NCBI RefSeq assembly: GCF_034274695.1 | Contig: NZ_CP128362.1 | Location: 4,962,501 to 5,026,500 of the forward strand | Source of the DNA: Chitinophaga sp. LS1 | GTDB taxonomy: Bacteria > Bacteroidota > Bacteroidia > Chitinophagales > Chitinophagaceae | Length of the DNA: 64,000 nt | Direction of reading: 5' to 3' | Shown: piece after piece, positions 49,741 through 57,015 of the stretch | Position numbering within the stretch: position 1 is the stretch's first letter | How the letters are laid out: each line of letters starts with the position of its first letter | Program-made: the position numbers and the translations under genes | The notes under the pieces: model-generated | Told to the model about the DNA's origin: nothing | Seen by the model: only the letters and a program-made list of their open reading frames with translations | Database searches by the model: none

Positions 49741-52188
49741 TTATCTGGCAGAACGGATAATATCTGCAAAGATACCAGAAGCGGTTACATCTGCCCCTGC
49801 GCCTGCACCTTTAACGATGAGTGGCTGGTCAGCATAGCGGTTAGTGGTATAGAGCACAATGTTATCTTTTCCAAGCAGGTTGTAGAAAGGATGATCTGGT
49901 GCTACGGACTGCAGACCTACAGAAGCTTTGCCATTTTCATAGCGGGCTACGAACTTCAGGCGTTTGCCTTCTTTCACAGCAGCTTCATAGAGACCTTTGA
50001 AGTGAGCGGCATGTACATCCAGTTGTTCGTAGAAGTCAGCAACAGATGGTGCGTTCAGTGCTTCGGCAGGCAGGAAGGAATGGTTAGTGATGTCTTCCAG
50101 TTCCATTCTGGCGCCACTTTCACGGGCCAGTATCAGGATCTTGCGCATTACATCCACACCACTCAGATCGATACGTGGATCTGGTTCAGTATATCCTTCG
50201 TCCTGTGCAGCTTTTACCACTTCACGGAAGCTTGCGCCATCCACAAAGTTGTTGAACACGAAGTTCAGGCTACCACTCAGTACGGCTTCGATGCTGTTTA
50301 CTTTATCACCGCTGCGGATCAGGTCATTCAGGGTGTTGATCACCGGCAGACCAGCGCCTACGTTGGTTTCGAACAGGAAAGATGCGTTGAATTTACGTGC
50401 TGTTTCTTTCAGGCTCTTATAATAGTTGTAGTCAGAAGAACAGGCGATCTTGTTGCAGGTTACTACAGAGATACCGTGTTGCAGGAAGTCGCCGTATATC
50501 GCTGCTACTTCAGGACTGGCAGTGTTATCAACGAATACGCTGTTGCGGAGGTTGAGGGATTTGATCTTTTGTGCAAATCCTTTCATATCGGAGCTTTCGC
50601 CGTTTTCCAGCAACTGGCGCCATTCAGGCAGGTTGATGGAAGCATGGCCGAAAGCCATTTTCTTACTGTTGGCAATACCTGCAACGCGTACGTGCAGACC
50701 GAGTTCATTCATGAGGAAGTTGTGCTGTTGGTTCAGTTGTTCCAGCAGTTTGCCACCTACGTTGCCCACCCCGGCGATGAATACGTTCACCTGTTTCAGC
50801 GGGGCTTCGAAGAATGCTTCGTGGATCACGTTCAGCGCTTTCTTCACATCGTTTTTATTGATCACTACAGAGATGTTCTTTTCAGTAGAACCCTGTGCGA
50901 TGGCGCGGATGTTTACACCGTTACGACCCAGTGCAGCAAAGAGTTTGCCGCTGGTACCATGGTGGTTTTTCATCTTATCACCAACTACCGCCACGATGCT
51001 CATATCTCTTTCAACCACGAGGGGTTGTATACGTTTTTCCTGTATTTCCTGTGCGAATTCGCTATCTACCGCCTGTTTGGATTTCAGCATATCTGCTTCG
51101 TGGATACCTACAGTGATAGAGTGTTCAGAAGAGCTCTGTGTGATGAGGATCACATTGATCTTTTCCTGGAGCAGGGCTTCGAACAGGCGTTTGGAGAAGC
51201 CTGGTATACCTACCATGCCGCTACCTTCGAGGGTAAGCAGGGCGATCTTCTGGATACCGCTGATACCTGTTACAGGGTAGTTGCGGCCATTGCCATCGGG
51301 TGTATGGATCAGTGTACCATAATCTTCCGGAGAAAAAGTGTTCTTGATCCAGATAGGTATTTTCTTGTCCATCACCGGTTGGATGGTAGGCGGGTAGATC
51401 ACCTTGGCGCCGAAGTGAGACAGTTCCATGGCTTCAGCATAGCTGATGTGGGGGATAGGAATAGCCTGTGATACGAGACGAGGGTCGGCGGTCATCATAC
51501 CGCTTACATCGGTCCAGATATCGAGTACCTCAGCGTTGAGGGCAGCTGCGATAATAGCAGCGGTGTAGTCGGAACCACCTCTGCCGAGGGTCGTGGTTTC
51601 GCCATCAGCGGTAGCGGCTACAAAGCCCGGGAGTACCACGTAGGTAGCGCTTTCCTGCTGAAAATACTGGTTAGTCTGATGATTGGTAGCGAGGAAGTTT
51701 ACAGCGGCGTTACCAAAGTTACCATCGGTCACGATCAGTTCACGGCTGTCTTTCCATGCGGCAGAAAGGCCGCTGACTTTGAGTTTTTCGGCTAGCAGGT
51801 AAGAAGATACCAGTTCACCGAAGCTCATGATTTTATCCAACGATCTTGCGCTCAGTTCACCTACCTGGAAGATACCGTCACACAGTGTTTCCAGTACGTT
51901 AACGCGCTTTTTCACCTGAGAGATAATGCTGCTCTGCGCAGTGATAGGGAAGAGGGTTCGGATAGTGTCGAGGTGTTTGTTTTCAATCTCCTCCAATACA
52001 GTTTTATATTGTTCCTGTCCTTGTCCGGCGAGAGTACCTACCTGTATGAGTTTGTCGGTGATGCCGCTCATAGCAGAAGCTACGATGGTAAGACGTCCGT
52101 TTTGTTTTCTATTTTTTACGATCTCGCAAACCTGTTCTATCGCCTGGGCGCTTCCCATGGAGGTACCGCCGAATTTTAATACTTGCAT
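49741..52188 (-). CDS. thrA: Bifunctional aspartokinase / homoserine dehydrogenase I
   Basis: 815 residues, full length. Aspartokinase domain (KFGGTSMGSAQAIEQ, TTLGRGGSDYTAAIIAAALN), two ACT-like regulatory domains in the middle, and a homoserine dehydrogenase domain (VFIAGVGNVGGKLLEQL, VTCNKIACSSDYNYYKSL, FETNVGAGLPVINTL). It catalyses the first and third steps from aspartate toward threonine and is by family feedback-inhibited by threonine. The gene is preceded by a Thr/Ile-rich leader and hairpins, so transcription is likely attenuated by charged tRNA levels. Confidence 0.97.
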   Translation of the reverse strand: MQVLKFGGTSMGSAQAIEQVCEIVKNRKQNGRLTIVASAMSGITDKLIQVGTLAGQGQEQYKTVLEEIENKHLDTIRTLFPITAQSSIISQVKKRVNVLETLCDGIFQVGELSARSLDKIMSFGELVSSYLLAEKLKVSGLSAAWKDSRELIVTDGNFGNAAVNFLATNHQTNQYFQQESATYVVLPGFVAATADGETTTLGRGGSDYTAAIIAAALNAEVLDIWTDVSGMMTADPRLVSQAIPIPHISYAEAMELSHFGAKVIYPPTIQPVMDKKIPIWIKNTFSPEDYGTLIHTPDGNGRNYPVTGISGIQKIALLTLEGSGMVGIPGFSKRLFEALLQEKINVILITQSSSEHSITVGIHEADMLKSKQAVDSEFAQEIQEKRIQPLVVERDMSIVAVVGDKMKNHHGTSGKLFAALGRNGVNIRAIAQGSTEKNISVVINKNDVKKALNVIHEAFFEAPLKQVNVFIAGVGNVGGKLLEQLNQQHNFLMNELGLHVRVAGIANSKKMAFGHASINLPEWRQLLENGESSDMKGFAQKIKSLNLRNSVFVDNTASPEVAAIYGDFLQHGISVVTCNKIACSSDYNYYKSLKETARKFNASFLFETNVGAGLPVINTLNDLIRSGDKVNSIEAVLSGSLNFVFNNFVDGASFREVVKAAQDEGYTEPDPRIDLSGVDVMRKILILARESGARMELEDITNHSFLPAEALNAPSVADFYEQLDVHAAHFKGLYEAAVKEGKRLKFVARYENGKASVGLQSVAPDHPFYNLLGKDNIVLYTTNRYADQPLIVKGAGAGADVTASGIFADIIRSAR

Positions 52189-52265
52189 GTCTGTAATTGT
52201 TAATACGTAAAGATCCTATCGCTTTTGCTGCTGGTTACCACTTGTGGTGGTCGTTGGATGATATG

Positions 52266-52339
52266 TGAAAATTAACCCCGGAGCGGGGTAATAATTGTGG
52301 TAGTAATAATAGTGCTGAAACCTGCACCGGAGATGGTGC
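52266..52339 (-). promoter_or_regulatory. Probable thr attenuator (hairpins in the thrA leader)
   Basis: On the minus strand a first stem GCACC/GGTGC (52339-52324) lies just before the Thr/Ile codon run and a second, CCCCG-CTC-CGGGG (52288-52276), overlaps the leader's last codons and is followed by TTAATTTT, like a short intrinsic terminator. A further ACCAC/GTGGT stem is at 52248-52237. The layout is that of an amino-acid attenuator. Confidence 0.55.
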
Positions 52340-52376
52340 GGGATGCAGAAGAGGAGTATGTAACTATTGGTAGCAC
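52272..52376 (-). CDS. thrL: thr operon leader peptide (Thr/Ile-rich)
   Basis: 34 codons if the GTG at 52376 is the start (no ATG exists in the leader; the start is uncertain). The key feature is a run of nine codons for T-I-I-T-T-T-I-I-T (52313-52287), then PLRG and TAA at 52274. Thr and Ile are the two amino acids whose tRNAs control the classical thr attenuator of enterobacteria. The stop falls at the base of a terminator-like hairpin. It ends 83 nt before thrA. Confidence 0.65.
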   Translation of the reverse strand: MLPIVTYSSSASRTISGAGFSTIITTTIITPLRG

Positions 52377-52403
52377 TATTTTATATAATTTACTATTCGC
52401 AAA

Positions 52404-52435
52404 CAAAAGTCCGGAATTACTTTTGAATTAGCAAA
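52404..52435 (-). promoter_or_regulatory. Promoter of the thr leader and operon
   Basis: On the minus strand TTTG (52435-52432), 20-nt spacer, GACTTTTG (52411-52404), one base from TAnnTTTG. The leader GTG is 27 nt downstream. Confidence 0.5.
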
Positions 52436-52504
52436 TGAATTGTCAGAATTTTGAAATAATTTAAAATGAAGGGCGGTTTTTTGTAAAAATTTCCGGGTAA
52501 TGGT

Positions 52505-52517
52505 TTGTCCTGGACAA
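52505..52517. promoter_or_regulatory. Inverted repeat upstream of the hmgA leader promoter
   Basis: ttgtcc-t-ggacaa, a perfect 6+6 palindrome, 27 nt before the -7 element. Because the promoter lacks a TTTG at -33, an activator site is plausible. Confidence 0.45.
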
Positions 52518-52544
52518 CAAAGCGTGTAATATTCAGTAATTCAC

Positions 52545-52552
52545 TACATTTG
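52545..52552 (+). promoter_or_regulatory. -7 element of the hmgA leader promoter
   Basis: TACATTTG, an exact consensus match, ending 17 nt before the ATG of the 33-codon leader ORF. Confidence 0.6.
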
Positions 52553-52568
52553 TTCCAACCACGTTACG

Positions 52569-52670
52569 ATGCCTTATTTTCGCAACTTCACATATTATAT
52601 CGATAAGCGCCGCTGGAAATACTGTTTTCTGCTGGCAGCTTTGGCCATGGACGCCGCTTTCGTTTTTTAA
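52569..52670 (+). CDS. 33-residue leader peptide ahead of hmgA
   Basis: ATG to TAA, 33 codons. The first half is strongly aromatic and basic (MPYFRNFTYYIDKRRW), the second half is KYCFLLAALAMDAAFVF. The same length and the motif KYCFL-x4-LAMDA occur in the ORF ahead of hppD. Between the two, codons for K, C, F, D and A differ only at third positions, which argues for selection on the peptide. It starts 17 nt after a -7 element, at the very 5' end of the transcript, and ends 45 nt before hmgA. I infer a regulatory leader peptide; no known family is recognised. Confidence 0.65.
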   Translation: MPYFRNFTYYIDKRRWKYCFLLAALAMDAAFVF

Positions 52671-52715
52671 CGTTTGTCATAAAATTGTAACTCCACACAT
52701 CAAAACATATTTGTA

Positions 52716-53873
52716 ATGCCTCATTATTGTAAGCTGGGAGAGATCCCGCACAAGCGTCATACCCAGTTCCGCAAACCGGATGGGTCGTTGTACTCCGAAC
52801 AGTTATTTTCCACTGAAGGCTTTTCTTCCAATTCTACGTTGTTGTATCATTGTCATCCTCCTACAGAAATTGTAAAGGTAGATACGCCATTTTCGGTAGC
52901 GCCAAAAGTAGCGGAAGAGAAGATGCTCAAGCACCGGAGTTTTCAGGGATTTAATATCATGCCTAAAAAAGATTTTCTGCAAAGCAGGAAACCGGTATTG
53001 GTGAATAGTGATCTGCACATCGTATTAGCGGCTCCGCAGGAGAGTATGACGGAGTACTTTTATAAAAATGCGGATGCAGATGAAATGATCTTTGTGCATG
53101 AAGGGAGTGGTACACTGCTTACACAGTATGGACAGTTGTCATTTTCCTATGGTGATTACCTGGTGGTACCACGCGGCACCATTTACCAGGTACACTTCAA
53201 TACGGCAGACAACAGGCTGTTTATCGTAGAATCATTTAGTCCTATTCGTTATCCGCAGCGGTATTTAAGCAAGTTTGGGCAGTTGCTGGAACATGCGCCT
53301 TATTGTGAGCGGGACATCCGCCAGCCGGAGAACCTGGTAACGGTGGATCAGGCAGGTGATTATTTAATTAAGATAAAAAAGAAAGGCATGATGTATCCTA
53401 TACACTATGCGCATCATCCATTTGATGTGATAGGGTGGGATGGATGCGAGTATCCGTTTGCCTTTTCCATACACGATTTCGAGCCGATTACGGGGCGCGT
53501 GCACCAGCCACCACCGGTGCATCAGACATTTGAAGGGCATAATTTTGTGGTGTGTTCATTTGTACCAAGAATGTATGATTACCACCCGGCGTCTATACCT
53601 GCGCCTTACAATCATAGTAATATTGATAGTGATGAAGTGCTGTATTATGTAGATGGTGATTTTATGAGTCGCAAGCATGTGACAAGAGGAATGATCACGT
53701 TACATCCCGGTGGTATTCCACATGGACCACATCCGGGCGCGGTGGAGAAGAGTATCGGGAAAACGGAAACGAAAGAGCTGGCGGTGATGGTGGATACTTT
53801 TCATCCATTGCAGATTACAGAAGAGGCGTTGGGAATAGAGGATGAAAGTTATACTATGAGTTGGAAGGAGTAG
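52716..53873 (+). CDS. hmgA: Homogentisate 1,2-dioxygenase
   Basis: 385 residues, shorter than animal enzymes but usual for the phylum. The cupin barrel carries NHSNIDSDEVLYYVDGDFMS and LHPGGIPHGPHPGA, the iron-binding His/Glu region; YHPASIPAPYN precedes it. It opens the homogentisate ring to maleylacetoacetate in tyrosine/phenylalanine breakdown. The next upstream enzyme of the pathway, hppD, is encoded 1.9 kb further on in the same direction with a matching leader peptide, indicating shared control. Confidence 0.94.
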   Translation: MPHYCKLGEIPHKRHTQFRKPDGSLYSEQLFSTEGFSSNSTLLYHCHPPTEIVKVDTPFSVAPKVAEEKMLKHRSFQGFNIMPKKDFLQSRKPVLVNSDLHIVLAAPQESMTEYFYKNADADEMIFVHEGSGTLLTQYGQLSFSYGDYLVVPRGTIYQVHFNTADNRLFIVESFSPIRYPQRYLSKFGQLLEHAPYCERDIRQPENLVTVDQAGDYLIKIKKKGMMYPIHYAHHPFDVIGWDGCEYPFAFSIHDFEPITGRVHQPPPVHQTFEGHNFVVCSFVPRMYDYHPASIPAPYNHSNIDSDEVLYYVDGDFMSRKHVTRGMITLHPGGIPHGPHPGAVEKSIGKTETKELAVMVDTFHPLQITEEALGIEDESYTMSWKE

Positions 53874-53958
53874 GGGGATCAGATTTAGTTTAAGCAGGGG
53901 GGTATTGCTGCAAGCAGTCGTGTTTAACGCTTTAGCCGGCCAGAGGCCCTTCCCAAAA

Positions 53959-53998
53959 AAAGAGCGTGTATCTTATGTTGAAGGTACACGCTCTTTTA
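53959..53998 (+). terminator. Hairpin downstream of hmgA
   Basis: aaagagcgtgta (53959-53970) pairs with tacacgctcttt (53985-53996), followed by T-rich sequence. Confidence 0.7.
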
Positions 53999-54108
53999 TT
54001 CGGATACCTGATGGAGCCGGATTTCCATTTTATGCGGGTCCAGGGAGTTTCATTTATTTTTGATCCATCCTGATTTTCTATATTGCATAACAATAAAACG
54101 GGAACAAA

Positions 54109-55101
54109 ATGGAATTTAGACAATTAGGCGAAAGCGAACTGAAGGTAAGCGCCATTACATTTGGCGCATGGGCAATTGGTGGATGGATGTGGGGCGGCGC
54201 AGAGCGGAAAGACGCTGTGGAAGCGATCAAAGCATCTATTGATGAAGGTGTTACTTCTATTGATACGGCACCCATTTATGGCCAGGGATTAAGCGAAGAA
54301 ATTGTAGGCGAAGCGCTGAAAGGAACAGACCGTAGCAAGGTACAGCTCCTCACTAAATTTGGTATGCGCTGGGATCTGGCAAAAGGTGAGTTTGGTTTTA
54401 AGAGCAAAGACAACAGCGGGAAAGATATTGATATCTACAAATATGCAGGGAAGGAAAGTGTGATCCTTGAGTGTGAGAATAGTCTGAAGAGACTGGGTAC
54501 AGATTATATCGATCTGTTACAGATTCACTGGCCAGACCCGACAACACCGATTGAAGAAACTTTCGAAGCTGTGGCACAATTAAAACAACAGGGTAAGATC
54601 CGCGAAGCAGGTGTATGTAACTACAATGTGGAGCAGATGAAGAAAGCAGACAGCGTGGTAAAACTCGCTTCCAACCAGGTGCCTTTCAGCATGGTAGAGC
54701 GGAATATCGAAAAGGAAACAGTACCTTATTGCATAGAAAACAAAAAAGGTATTTTGGCATACAGTCCGCTGCAGCGGGGGGTGCTGACAGGGAAGATCAA
54801 ACCGGGGCATCAGTTCGGAGAGGGCGATACCCGTGCGGGATCTAAATACTACAAGGAAGATAACCTGGTTCGTATCAATGCATTCCTTGACCAGATCCGC
54901 CCGATGGCAGAAAGTAAGAATGTAACACTGGCTCAGTTGGTGATCCGCTGGACGATTGAAAGGCCGGGTATTACAGTAGCGTTGGTAGGTGCCCGGGATG
55001 CGAATCAGGCGATACAGAATGCAAGAGCTATTCATGTAAAACTGGGTGCAGAGGAGATCAAGTATATCAATGATAAATTATATCAGCTGGAATTGATTTA
55101 A
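54109..55101 (+). CDS. Aldo/keto reductase
   Basis: 330 residues. Catalytic tetrad region: TSIDTAPIYGQGLSEEIVGE (Asp, Tyr), VQLLTKFGMRWD (Lys), and IDLLQIHWPDPTTPIEE (His). The C-terminal NADPH-binding VALVGARDANQAIQNARAIH matches the YajO/YghZ-type branch. It reduces an aldehyde or ketone with NADPH. It sits between hmgA and hppD but has its own spacing and no shared leader, so a link to tyrosine breakdown is not shown. Confidence 0.9.
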   Translation: MEFRQLGESELKVSAITFGAWAIGGWMWGGAERKDAVEAIKASIDEGVTSIDTAPIYGQGLSEEIVGEALKGTDRSKVQLLTKFGMRWDLAKGEFGFKSKDNSGKDIDIYKYAGKESVILECENSLKRLGTDYIDLLQIHWPDPTTPIEETFEAVAQLKQQGKIREAGVCNYNVEQMKKADSVVKLASNQVPFSMVERNIEKETVPYCIENKKGILAYSPLQRGVLTGKIKPGHQFGEGDTRAGSKYYKEDNLVRINAFLDQIRPMAESKNVTLAQLVIRWTIERPGITVALVGARDANQAIQNARAIHVKLGAEEIKYINDKLYQLELI

Positions 55102-55207
55102 TTCATGTAGCGTTAGCAATTTCCTGCAAGTTCGGTACATCTTGCTATTAAAAGGGTACTTCATTATTGTAGAGATATTGAGGTGCCCTTTTTGAGTAGT
55201 TTGCTGG

Positions 55208-55394
55208 TCGAAGGAGCATCGAAGAAGCATCGAAGGAGCATCGAAGAAGCGTCGAAGAAGCATCGAAGAAGCATCGAAGAAGTATCGAAGAAGCGTCGAA
55301 GGAGCATCGAAGAAGTATCGAAGAAGCATCGAAGAAGTATCGAAGAAGCATCGAAGAAGTATCGAAGAAGCGTCGAAGAAGCATCGAAGATAGA
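55208..55394. repeat. 17-copy 11-bp tandem array
   Basis: Consensus TCGAAGAAGCA; TCGAAG starts at 55208, 55219 and every 11 bases to 55384 without a break. Variation is confined to three positions (A/G at 7, C/T at 10, A/G at 11). Both strands are open across it, giving 11-residue repeats, but these translations are by-products of the period. Lies between the aldo/keto reductase gene and the hppD leader. Confidence 0.92.
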
Positions 55395-55424
55395 TTAGCA
55401 AAACAATAAAACAAATACGGGTAA

Positions 55425-55491
55425 TGTATCAAGCTGATACACTACCACAAATGTGATATTTTGTTTTATTCAAAAGGAATGCATATTATTG
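55425..55491 (+). promoter_or_regulatory. Operator-like palindrome and promoter of the hppD leader
   Basis: TGTATCA-AGC-TGATACA (55425-55441) is a perfect 7+7 palindrome. Then TTTG (55460-55463), a 20-nt spacer and TATTATTG (55484-55491), one base off consensus. The leader ATG is 17 nt beyond, the same spacing as at hmgA. Confidence 0.6.
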
Positions 55492-55507
55492 CACTAGCAA
55501 CTATTTC

Positions 55508-55609
55508 ATGTTCAATACGCGCACATACCACTCTTCCAAATCAGACCAGCGTCACAGCAAGTACTGCTTCCTGATGTCCACGCTGGCCATGGATGCTGTA
55601 ATCGCCTGA
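55508..55609 (+). CDS. 33-residue leader peptide ahead of hppD
   Basis: ATG to TGA, 33 codons, the same length as the hmgA leader. The N-terminal half is hydrophilic (MFNTRTYHSSKSDQRHS), the C-terminal half is KYCFLMSTLAMDAVIA. It shares KYCFL-x4-LAMDA with the hmgA leader at an equivalent position, with synonymous codon changes. The stop codon is followed immediately by a hairpin. Location at the extreme 5' end of the transcript and 140 nt before hppD suggest cis-acting control; function inferred. Confidence 0.65.
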   Translation: MFNTRTYHSSKSDQRHSKYCFLMSTLAMDAVIA

Positions 55610-55650
55610 TTACAGATATGCGCCCGATTTTCACTATTACATATCTGTAA
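55610..55650 (+). promoter_or_regulatory. Hairpin directly after the hppD leader stop codon
   Basis: ttacagatatg (55610-55620) and catatctgtaa (55640-55650) form a perfect 11-bp stem with a 19-nt loop, starting at the base after TGA. No U-run follows, so it is not a plain terminator. Confidence 0.6.
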
Positions 55651-55749
55651 CCTCTCCTTGTAATGATGCCAATGCTTATGCGCATTGCTTTCATTCATTC
55701 ACATACACATACACCAAAACTTTCTACATCTCTTAAAAATCAAACCACC

Positions 55750-56886
55750 ATGAGTACTGCTCCTGATGCTGCCCTGGCAGCAGCTCCTGCCAATGTAAAA
55801 GACTTTTTACCATTGAACGGCACTGACTACGTTGAATTCTACGTAGGGAATGCAAAACAGGCCGCCCACTATTACAAAACCGCTTTCGGCTTCCAGTCCC
55901 TCGCTTATGCAGGCCCGGAAACAGGTGTGAAAGATCGCTCCTCCTATGTACTGGTGCAAAACAAACTCCGTTTTGTACTGACCACGCCGCTTCAGCCTAA
56001 CAACGACCTGGCTGCACACATTGCCGCCCACGGTGATGGTGTAAAAGTACTCGCGCTATGGGTAGACGATGCCCGCTCTGCATTTGAAGAAACTGTAAAG
56101 AGAGGTGCTAAACCTTACATGGAGCCAAAAGAGGAGAAAGATGAATTTGGTACCGTAGTACGCAGTGGTATTCACGCTTATGGCGATACCGTACACCTTT
56201 TTGTAGAAAGAAAGAACTACAACGGTCCTTTCCTGCCAGGTTACAAAGAATGGAAATCAACTTACAACCCAACCGATACCGGTCTTCAATATGTAGACCA
56301 TTGCGTAGGCAATGTGGGTTGGAATGAAATGAATACCTGGGTAGACTTCTACGAACAGGTAATGGGTTTCCGGAACCTGCTCAGCTTCGATGATAAAGAC
56401 ATTTCTACCGAATATTCTGCCCTCATGAGTAAGGTAATGAGCAATGGCAACGGTCGTGTGAAATTCCCGATCAATGAGCCTGCAGAAGGTAAGAAGAAAT
56501 CGCAGATCGAAGAATACCTCGATTTCTATGGTGGTCCGGGCGTACAGCACGTAGCCATCGCAACCAATAATATTATTCAGACAGTAACCGACCTGCAGGA
56601 CAGGGGTGTAGAATTCCTGAAAGTTCCGGGATCTTACTACGATACCCTGCTGGACAGGGTAGGAGAGATCGACGAAGACCTGCAGCCACTGAGAGAGCTG
56701 GGTATTCTCGTAGATCGTGACGACGAAGGTTACCTGTTACAGATATTCACCAAACCCGTACAGGACAGACCCACTGTTTTCTTTGAAATCATCCAGCGCA
56801 AGGGCGCCCAGTCATTTGGTAAGGGCAACTTCAAGGCTTTGTTTGAATCTATTGAAAGAGAGCAGGCATTAAGAGGTAACCTGTAA
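55750..56886 (+). CDS. hppD: 4-hydroxyphenylpyruvate dioxygenase
   Basis: 378 residues from ATG 55750 (MSTAPDAALAAAPANVKDFL); the frame opens further up at 55663 but that part lies in the leader. Two VOC halves: LNGTDYVEFYVGNAKQAAHY and VDHCVGNVGWNEMNTWVDFY (first iron His), GPGVQHVAIATNNI (second His), and LLQIFTKPVQDRPTVFFEII (Glu). It turns 4-hydroxyphenylpyruvate into homogentisate, the substrate of HmgA. Ends at a terminator followed by the dispersed repeat. Confidence 0.95.
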   Translation: MSTAPDAALAAAPANVKDFLPLNGTDYVEFYVGNAKQAAHYYKTAFGFQSLAYAGPETGVKDRSSYVLVQNKLRFVLTTPLQPNNDLAAHIAAHGDGVKVLALWVDDARSAFEETVKRGAKPYMEPKEEKDEFGTVVRSGIHAYGDTVHLFVERKNYNGPFLPGYKEWKSTYNPTDTGLQYVDHCVGNVGWNEMNTWVDFYEQVMGFRNLLSFDDKDISTEYSALMSKVMSNGNGRVKFPINEPAEGKKKSQIEEYLDFYGGPGVQHVAIATNNIIQTVTDLQDRGVEFLKVPGSYYDTLLDRVGEIDEDLQPLRELGILVDRDDEGYLLQIFTKPVQDRPTVFFEIIQRKGAQSFGKGNFKALFESIEREQALRGNL

Positions 56887-56944
56887 AAATTCGGGTAGGT
56901 CTATTCTATCGAAGATCCGCCGTTCTATTGTTGTTTTAGCAAGT

Positions 56945-56976
56945 AGGGCTGTTCCGTACGGAACAGCCCTTTATTT
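56945..56976 (+). terminator. Terminator of hppD
   Basis: Perfect 12-bp arms agggctgttccg (56945-56956) and cggaacagccct (56959-56970), then TTATTTTT. Confidence 0.85.
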
Positions 56977-56979
56977 TTC

Positions 56980-57015
56980 GTTAAAATGGTTTTCTACAAA
57001 AACTCCCTGTTTAAT
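56980..57015 (+). repeat. Terminator-trailing repeat, hppD copy
   Basis: gttaaaatggttttctac then aactccctgttta directly after the terminator, matching units at 10649-10775 and, inverted, 6901-7008. The rest of the gap to 57223 shows no convincing gene. Confidence 0.5.

Follow-up and report, generated by a model that had tools for sequence, protein, structure and literature searches.

A family of conserved leader peptides ahead of tyrosine-breakdown genes in Chitinophagaceae

Introduction

To our knowledge, natural peptides that detect a metabolite before leaving the ribosome are few; TnaC, which responds to tryptophan, and SpeFL, an ornithine-sensing arrest peptide of ~34 codons, are examples. 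TnaC sits ahead of tnaA in the E. coli tryptophanase operon, where free amino acid relieves Rho-dependent termination. Its conserved residues are Trp12, Asp16, Ile19 and Pro24 (PMC10941005, available text), and the accessible part of PMC8429421 has TnaC stalling with the stop codon in the A site and SpeFL stalling at termination. Attenuator leaders of flavobacteria are mentioned in the available text of PMC9723704. Here we describe short leader open reading frames (ORFs) that precede hmgA and hppD in a 64,000-nucleotide (nt) stretch of Chitinophaga sp. LS1 (contig NZ_CP128362.1, positions 4,962,501–5,026,500; hereafter the window) and that have relatives in other Chitinophagaceae.

These leaders resemble TnaC in heading a gene for aromatic amino-acid breakdown, in conserving residues rather than a run of codons (the type found ahead of hmgA has Trp16 and Asp12) and in a C-rich spacer that may suit Rho. 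They differ from it in genes and phylum. The conserved terminal Pro of TnaC is absent, the type found ahead of hppD lacks Trp, and the TnaC residue set is not reproduced. SpeFL likewise serves an amino-acid catabolic gene, and capture of a ligand in the tunnel would be common to both, but its genes and lineage are others. Amino-acid operons under classical attenuators (thrL, trpL type) also begin with a leader ORF; here, in contrast, most of the peptide is conserved, the target is catabolic, the hppD type has no run of regulated codons and there is no general terminator. A literature search that reached few subscription journals found no paper describing these leaders among those listed, and the peptides gave nothing above cut-off against NCBIfam and Pfam. 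Searching a protein database with them was unproductive, the peptides being too short.

Results

Three leader types under selection at the peptide level

The leaders form three related types (132 distinct peptides in one collection). The hmgA type reads MPxxRNFTYWIDKRxWKYxFLL followed by a free tail; the hppD type, found also ahead of phenol-lyase and decarboxylase genes, reads MxPDYPHKxFxDKRxNYCLLMEALAMDS; and a Chitinophaga form (...YYFLMATLAMDS) precedes hppD or hmgA–hppD operons. Type and gene go together: with the gene in view, the hmgA type lies ahead of hmgA in 69/69 cases and the hppD type ahead of hppD in 30/30, the Chitinophaga form of the same set being divided between hmgA (28) and hppD (16); for 13 leaders no gene was in view. 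C. pinensis strain YS-16 carries a leader of the hmgA type (L047). Residues conserved at fixed positions include Arg, Asn, Asp, Lys and Pro. Past position 25 the peptide runs on for 3–20 residues in the hmgA type and 3–17 in the hppD type. Two leaders (L107 and L039) have lost several codons in-frame, keeping the frame and the C-terminal motif, and in one clade with no nearby ATG a conserved TTG would fit as the start.

The original prediction was that selection acts on the peptide, and that the ratio of nonsynonymous to synonymous change (dN/dS) would therefore lie well under 1. Close pairs bear this out, with dN/dS of 0.166, 0.065 and 0.061 for the three types (57, 10 and 139 pairs), values lowered to some degree by collecting leaders with regular expressions that fix some residues. 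Heterozygosity at codon positions 1/2/3 is 0.14/0.11/0.48, 0.27/0.16/0.51 and 0.03/0.05/0.36, a contrast reached by 0, 0 and 3 of 20000 permutations. Arg5 is written with five codons and Leu21 with six; the collecting pattern fixed these residues, not their codons. A profile scan agrees with the regular-expression collection at 211 of 217 places. The six discordant places comprise three real variants or partial reads and three weak matches from other families, at loci where none of the target genes (hmgA, hppD, phenol-lyase, decarboxylase) appears.

Profile comparison relates the hmgA and hppD types with a probability of 93.8% when Chitinophaga forms are included. With pure sets the probability is 23% (E=0.0009), the score of 15.8 standing against at most 9.85 in 60 column shuffles. 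A common origin of the two types is thus moderately supported.

The conserved block might instead be an RNA or DNA element, such as a riboswitch or operator. A perfect inverted repeat does follow the hppD leader of the window, and the Chitinophaga form folds somewhat better than shuffled sequence. The repeat occurs only in very close relatives (L061–L063 retain it, slightly changed). The free third codon positions and the switching of Arg between CGN and AGR speak against such an element, as does the little folding signal of the hmgA- and hppD-type leaders (mean z −0.15 and −0.44, 16 sampled each); in 52000–57000, Rfam gave no match at the gathering score and two sub-threshold ones. We rejected an RNA element on Rfam, codon variation and folding, and consider this explanation very improbable.

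We are nearly certain that these are real coding leaders, a family tied to tyrosine breakdown. Judged by peptide-level selection and a fixed position heading the unit, the leaders are conserved upstream ORFs.

Leaders appear to accompany transcription units

A profile of the window's two peptides matches 60/60 Chitinophaga genomes at E≤1. Each of the best 76 matches, the weakest of them with E=0.0087, stands in front of hmgA or hppD (one, at a contig end in G006, was assigned through its own locus, L027). Every hmgA copy in the genus (60/60, from 59 genomes) has a leader within 400 nt. The hppD gene is present in all 60 genomes of the genus. Where it is separated from hmgA by over 1.4 kb, or lies on a different contig, it has its own leader in 20 of 21 copies, the single exception being a contig break; copies within ~1.2 kb behind hmgA carry one in 0/40. 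From this gene order we infer that the leader goes with the transcription unit.

The strong purifying selection would also suit a small protein acting in trans, for instance an enzyme regulator, placed upstream by operon history. Against it, the two types each stay in cis with their own gene, and hppD behind hmgA goes without a leader; the tail after position 25 is also variable. We consider a trans-acting protein improbable and regulation in cis very probable.

As a separate observation, one Chitinophaga contig (G039, C7) has the leader–hmgA–hppD unit twice in opposite orientation, at 53334–55943 (+) and 68874–71483 (−).

A broader profile finds a match in 151 of 244 Chitinophagaceae genomes (73 of 101 genera) at E≤0.05, where ~12 chance matches are expected, and in 141 at E≤0.001. 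With hmgA in 208 of these genomes, leader and hmgA occur together in 142, hmgA only in 66, the leader only in 9 and neither in 27. Homologues had been predicted upstream of the same genes in other genomes; they lie there, 30–255 nt ahead of hmgA and up to 221 nt ahead of hppD.

The family appears to mark the limit. We searched 345 Bacteroidia genomes, eight of them Chitinophagaceae, with each of two profiles: outside Chitinophagaceae there was no match at E≤0.001, and between 0.001 and 0.01 there were 8 and 2 against ~3.4 expected each, none with a target gene at its locus. The hmgA gene itself is common in the class (106/119 genomes), and none of 27 hmgA upstream regions from other families has a leader-like ORF. 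An order-level search returned 12 matches, all in Chitinophagaceae, with 8 genomes of the same family shown without a match. On these three lines, no wider spread across Bacteroidia was found.

Leaderless hmgA genes may lie inside operons: an ORF of 100 or more codons on the same strand ends within 150 nt in 15/21 cases, compared with 4/44 for leader-bearing hmgA (19/44 within 600 nt, many of these close upstream of the leader). The comparison is weak because the leader itself lengthens the distance.

Genes behind the leaders

Of 177 distinct leaders fetched, 167 have a following gene in the fetched stretch: hmgA in 102, hppD in 59, tyrosine phenol-lyase in 5 and a pyridoxal-phosphate (PLP) decarboxylase in 1. 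Of the other ten, eight lie ahead of hmgA by coordinates and two are at ends, one of a contig and the other of a locus. Individual examination of the nine leader-positive, hmgA-negative genomes located leaders ahead of hppD in two (L281, L290), tyrosine phenol-lyase in five (L282, L283, L284, L287, L288) and the decarboxylase in one (L285). The ninth (G101) gave nothing beyond a weak match whose meaning is not clear (L289), and G081 has an additional weak match (L286) that is interrupted by a stop.

Three phenol-lyases exceed the cut-off of 720.7 of the NCBIfam equivalog TIGR02618 (750, 760 and 737 bits), a truncated fourth scores 706, below it, and the closest solved structures also back the assignment. 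The decarboxylase (G135) is annotated as a histidine decarboxylase, with 473.5 bits against a cut-off of 305. Other targets had been expected to bear on the tyrosine link, and they do so unevenly: the phenol-lyase fits, the decarboxylase does not.

A survey that started from the gene gave 64 of the 244 family genomes with phenol-lyase or a relative. The best 30 phenol-lyase loci share at least 77% identity with the query phenol-lyase; in 15 of them the gene follows a paralogue in tandem, in 6 the paralogue is on the opposite strand and in 9 the gene stands alone. The five leader-bearing loci are all in genomes without hmgA and all among the nine standing alone (5/15 of those not in tandem behind a paralogue). 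The paralogues (at loci L296–L298, L300, L302, L304–L316, L318–L320), ~45–53% identical to the phenol-lyase, are possibly a third kind of lyase. Ten that were tested fit the broad tryptophanase subfamily (cut-off 285, which the phenol-lyase passes too) and reached no NCBIfam equivalog cut-off. In 0/20 of the regions ahead of such tryptophanase-family paralogues is there a leader. Seventeen further regions were covered: fifteen contain leaders of hppD or hmgA, two of these being re-reads, one is the decarboxylase region read again, and one ends short of a known leader.

Promoter boxes and spacers

The Bacteroidota −7 consensus is TAnnTTTG (PMC9723704, available text). A TAnnNTTG box stands ahead of 35/70 hmgA-type leaders (5.6 in shuffles), 29/31 of the hppD type (3.0) and 18/55 of the Chitinophaga form (4.0). 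Should the box run from −12 to −5, hppD-type transcripts would start at or a few bases from the leader start codon, and hmgA-type transcripts ~12–15 nt before it. The spacers between leader and gene vary in length, with ranges of 30–230, 5–213 and 86–255 nt for the three types, the 5-nt minimum resting on an assumed start.

A promoter box so often just before the leader makes the leader the first ORF, as would befit a generic translation booster that is translated to completion before re-initiation on the main gene (Korolev et al. 2016, PMC4833913). In the available text that proposal rests on spacings peaking at 11–14 bp in Bacteroidetes, a peak that neither the 30–255 nt for hmgA nor the hppD-type median of 67.5 nt follows; on this spacing we rejected a re-initiation leader. 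The booster also leaves the conserved amino-acid sequence unexplained, and it is quite improbable.

Classical attenuation, in which a ribosome stalls at Tyr or Phe codons when charged tRNA is short and a terminator/antiterminator switch follows, deserves more weight. The leader of hmgA had been described as rich in Tyr and Phe before the motif, and for the hmgA type this holds (Tyr+Phe+Trp make up 31.6%); it does not extend to the hppD type, which is only 13.6% aromatic, with Tyr5, Phe10 and Tyr17 scattered and no run of regulated codons. An apparent thr-type attenuator lies adjacent in the window, and terminator-like hairpins exceed shuffles in all three types (6/69 for the hmgA type, 4/30 for hppD and 14/44 for Chitinophaga, against 0.7, 0.7 and 2.0). 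That still leaves 119 of 143 spacers without one (24 with), so there is no general terminator between leader and gene, which argues against attenuation. Further points against it are that the spacer length is not conserved and that the fixed residues of the peptide include the non-aromatic Arg, Asn, Asp, Lys and Pro. We rejected classical attenuation as the general mechanism on hairpin scarcity and peptide composition; overall it is unlikely.

Spacers of at least 45 nt are skewed towards C over G, with means of +0.19, +0.13 and +0.26 (64, 29 and 44 spacers) compared with −0.07, +0.02 and +0.03 in three controls. Apart from a mild tendency in the Chitinophaga form, the spacers also carry little structure. 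A stalled ribosome that hides a Rho loading region would fit them better than hairpin switching, though this is no more than suggestive.

The two leaders of the window

Both ORFs of the window (Table 1) have 33 codons plus a stop, as originally reported, and the same 16 nt between the −7 box and the ATG, in line with a start 17 nt after the element. The equal length is a coincidence; relatives span 21 to 45 residues. The shared ending had been given as KYCFL-x4-LAMDA: both parts are present, with a spacing of x3 rather than x4. Codons for Lys, Cys, Phe, Asp and Ala in the shared block do differ only at third positions, and one Leu codon differs at the first (TTG/CTG), synonymously too. The 8.67-Mb genome has no other convincing copy, and relatives of the two occupy the same place in other genomes, which puts their similarity beyond chance. 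The nearest named relative among the genomes fetched is [Flexibacter] sp. ATCC 35208.

Table 1 Leaders, target genes and adjoining features, in positions of the window
Feature	Position	Strand	Basis
Putative −7 promoter box TACATTTG, ahead of hmgA leader	52545..52552	+	Sequence inspection
hmgA leader peptide ORF, 33 aa, MPYFRNFTYYIDKRRWKYCFLLAALAMDAAFVF	52569..52670	+	ORF, homologues, codon statistics
Spacer, 45 nt, hmgA leader stop to hmgA	52671..52715	+	
hmgA, homogentisate 1,2-dioxygenase	52716..53873	+	Pfam HgmA_N, 53.6 bits (cut-off 20.2)
Aldo/keto reductase gene between both units; context, outside the leader system	54109..55101	+	Pfam Aldo_ket_red, E=1e-71
Putative −7 promoter box TATTATTG, ahead of hppD leader	55484..55491	+	Sequence inspection
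hppD leader peptide ORF, 33 aa, MFNTRTYHSSKSDQRHSKYCFLMSTLAMDAVIA	55508..55609	+	ORF, homologues
Perfect 11-bp inverted repeat directly 3′ of hppD leader stop	55610-55620 / 55640-55650	+	
hppD, 4-hydroxyphenylpyruvate dioxygenase (start taken as 55750; frame already open from ATG at 55663)	55750..56886	+	Pfam Glyoxalase, Glyoxalase_5 (HPPD N-terminal)

Two neighbouring features were noted. Just upstream of the hppD promoter box, 55208–55390 holds a tandem array of an 11-bp unit, TCGAAGAAGCA (16.6 copies, 88% matches). On the minus strand, 52200–52420 is likely the thr attenuator mentioned above: a 44-aa ORF (52272–52406) ends TIITTTIITPLRG, and the leader folds with a z-score of −3.09, a GC-rich hairpin being followed by T-rich sequence. 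The ORF behind it is presumably aspartokinase–homoserine dehydrogenase-like.

Discussion

The sequences support a conserved ORF under purifying selection, adjoined by a promoter box, with a single leader for each transcription unit in the genus and the target genes named above. What we infer beyond this is that the leader is translated, that the ribosome stalls on it, which ligand is sensed, in which direction regulation works and that Rho takes part. On balance we favour a nascent-chain sensor of tyrosine or a derivative, TnaC-like in its action but not TnaC. The leader would come first among the ORFs of the mRNA, with selection preserving the encoded peptide rather than the RNA. Inside the exit tunnel the nascent chain, together with L-tyrosine or a metabolite derived from it, would stall the ribosome near codons 22–28. 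The variable tail of 3–20 residues after the conserved core speaks for an internal stall, if any, over one at the stop codon. The stalled ribosome would let RNA polymerase proceed into hmgA, hppD or phenol-lyase, possibly by covering a C-rich, G-poor stretch that would otherwise serve as a Rho loading site or, alternatively, by keeping the start region open.

The hmgA and hppD enzymes act on the homogentisate route of tyrosine, and phenol-lyase acts on tyrosine itself. Because tyrosine is the common factor of all three, L-tyrosine is the simplest ligand, and we name it tentatively; with 4-hydroxyphenylpyruvate or homogentisate as ligand, there would be no obvious reason for a leader ahead of phenol-lyase. 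A fuller picture, in which two distinct peptides (the hmgA type and the hppD/phenol-lyase type) sense tyrosine in the exit tunnel, control the homogentisate and phenol routes and move between genes as pathways rearrange, is one we put forward a shade more tentatively still.

Several findings weigh against tyrosine sensing as set out here. The G135 decarboxylase, with one hppD-type leader 46 nt ahead of it (L285/L341), has an unclear tie to tyrosine and is a target without explanation if tyrosine is what is sensed. Leaders stand ahead of only five of the best 30 phenol-lyase loci, and 66 of the 208 hmgA-bearing family genomes have no detectable one. The contrast with tryptophan is weak: paralogues that reach no tryptophanase equivalog cut-off are, though leaderless, poor evidence for tyrosine over tryptophan. 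The Chitinophaga form folds mildly (mean z −1.47 for leader and −1.27 for spacer, 16 sampled), and its spacers include the 14/44 with terminator-like hairpins. The C over G skew is modest and comes from related sequences, and spacers down to 30 nt leave little space for a full Rho site. Finally, conservation outside Chitinophaga is overstated, since loci there were picked by profile match.

A family with three types and at least three target genes offers a comparative set for how nascent chains recognize small molecules. If our reading is true, these leaders would be a possible source of a natural tyrosine sensor and would reveal how tyrosine breakdown is controlled across a large lineage of Bacteroidota.

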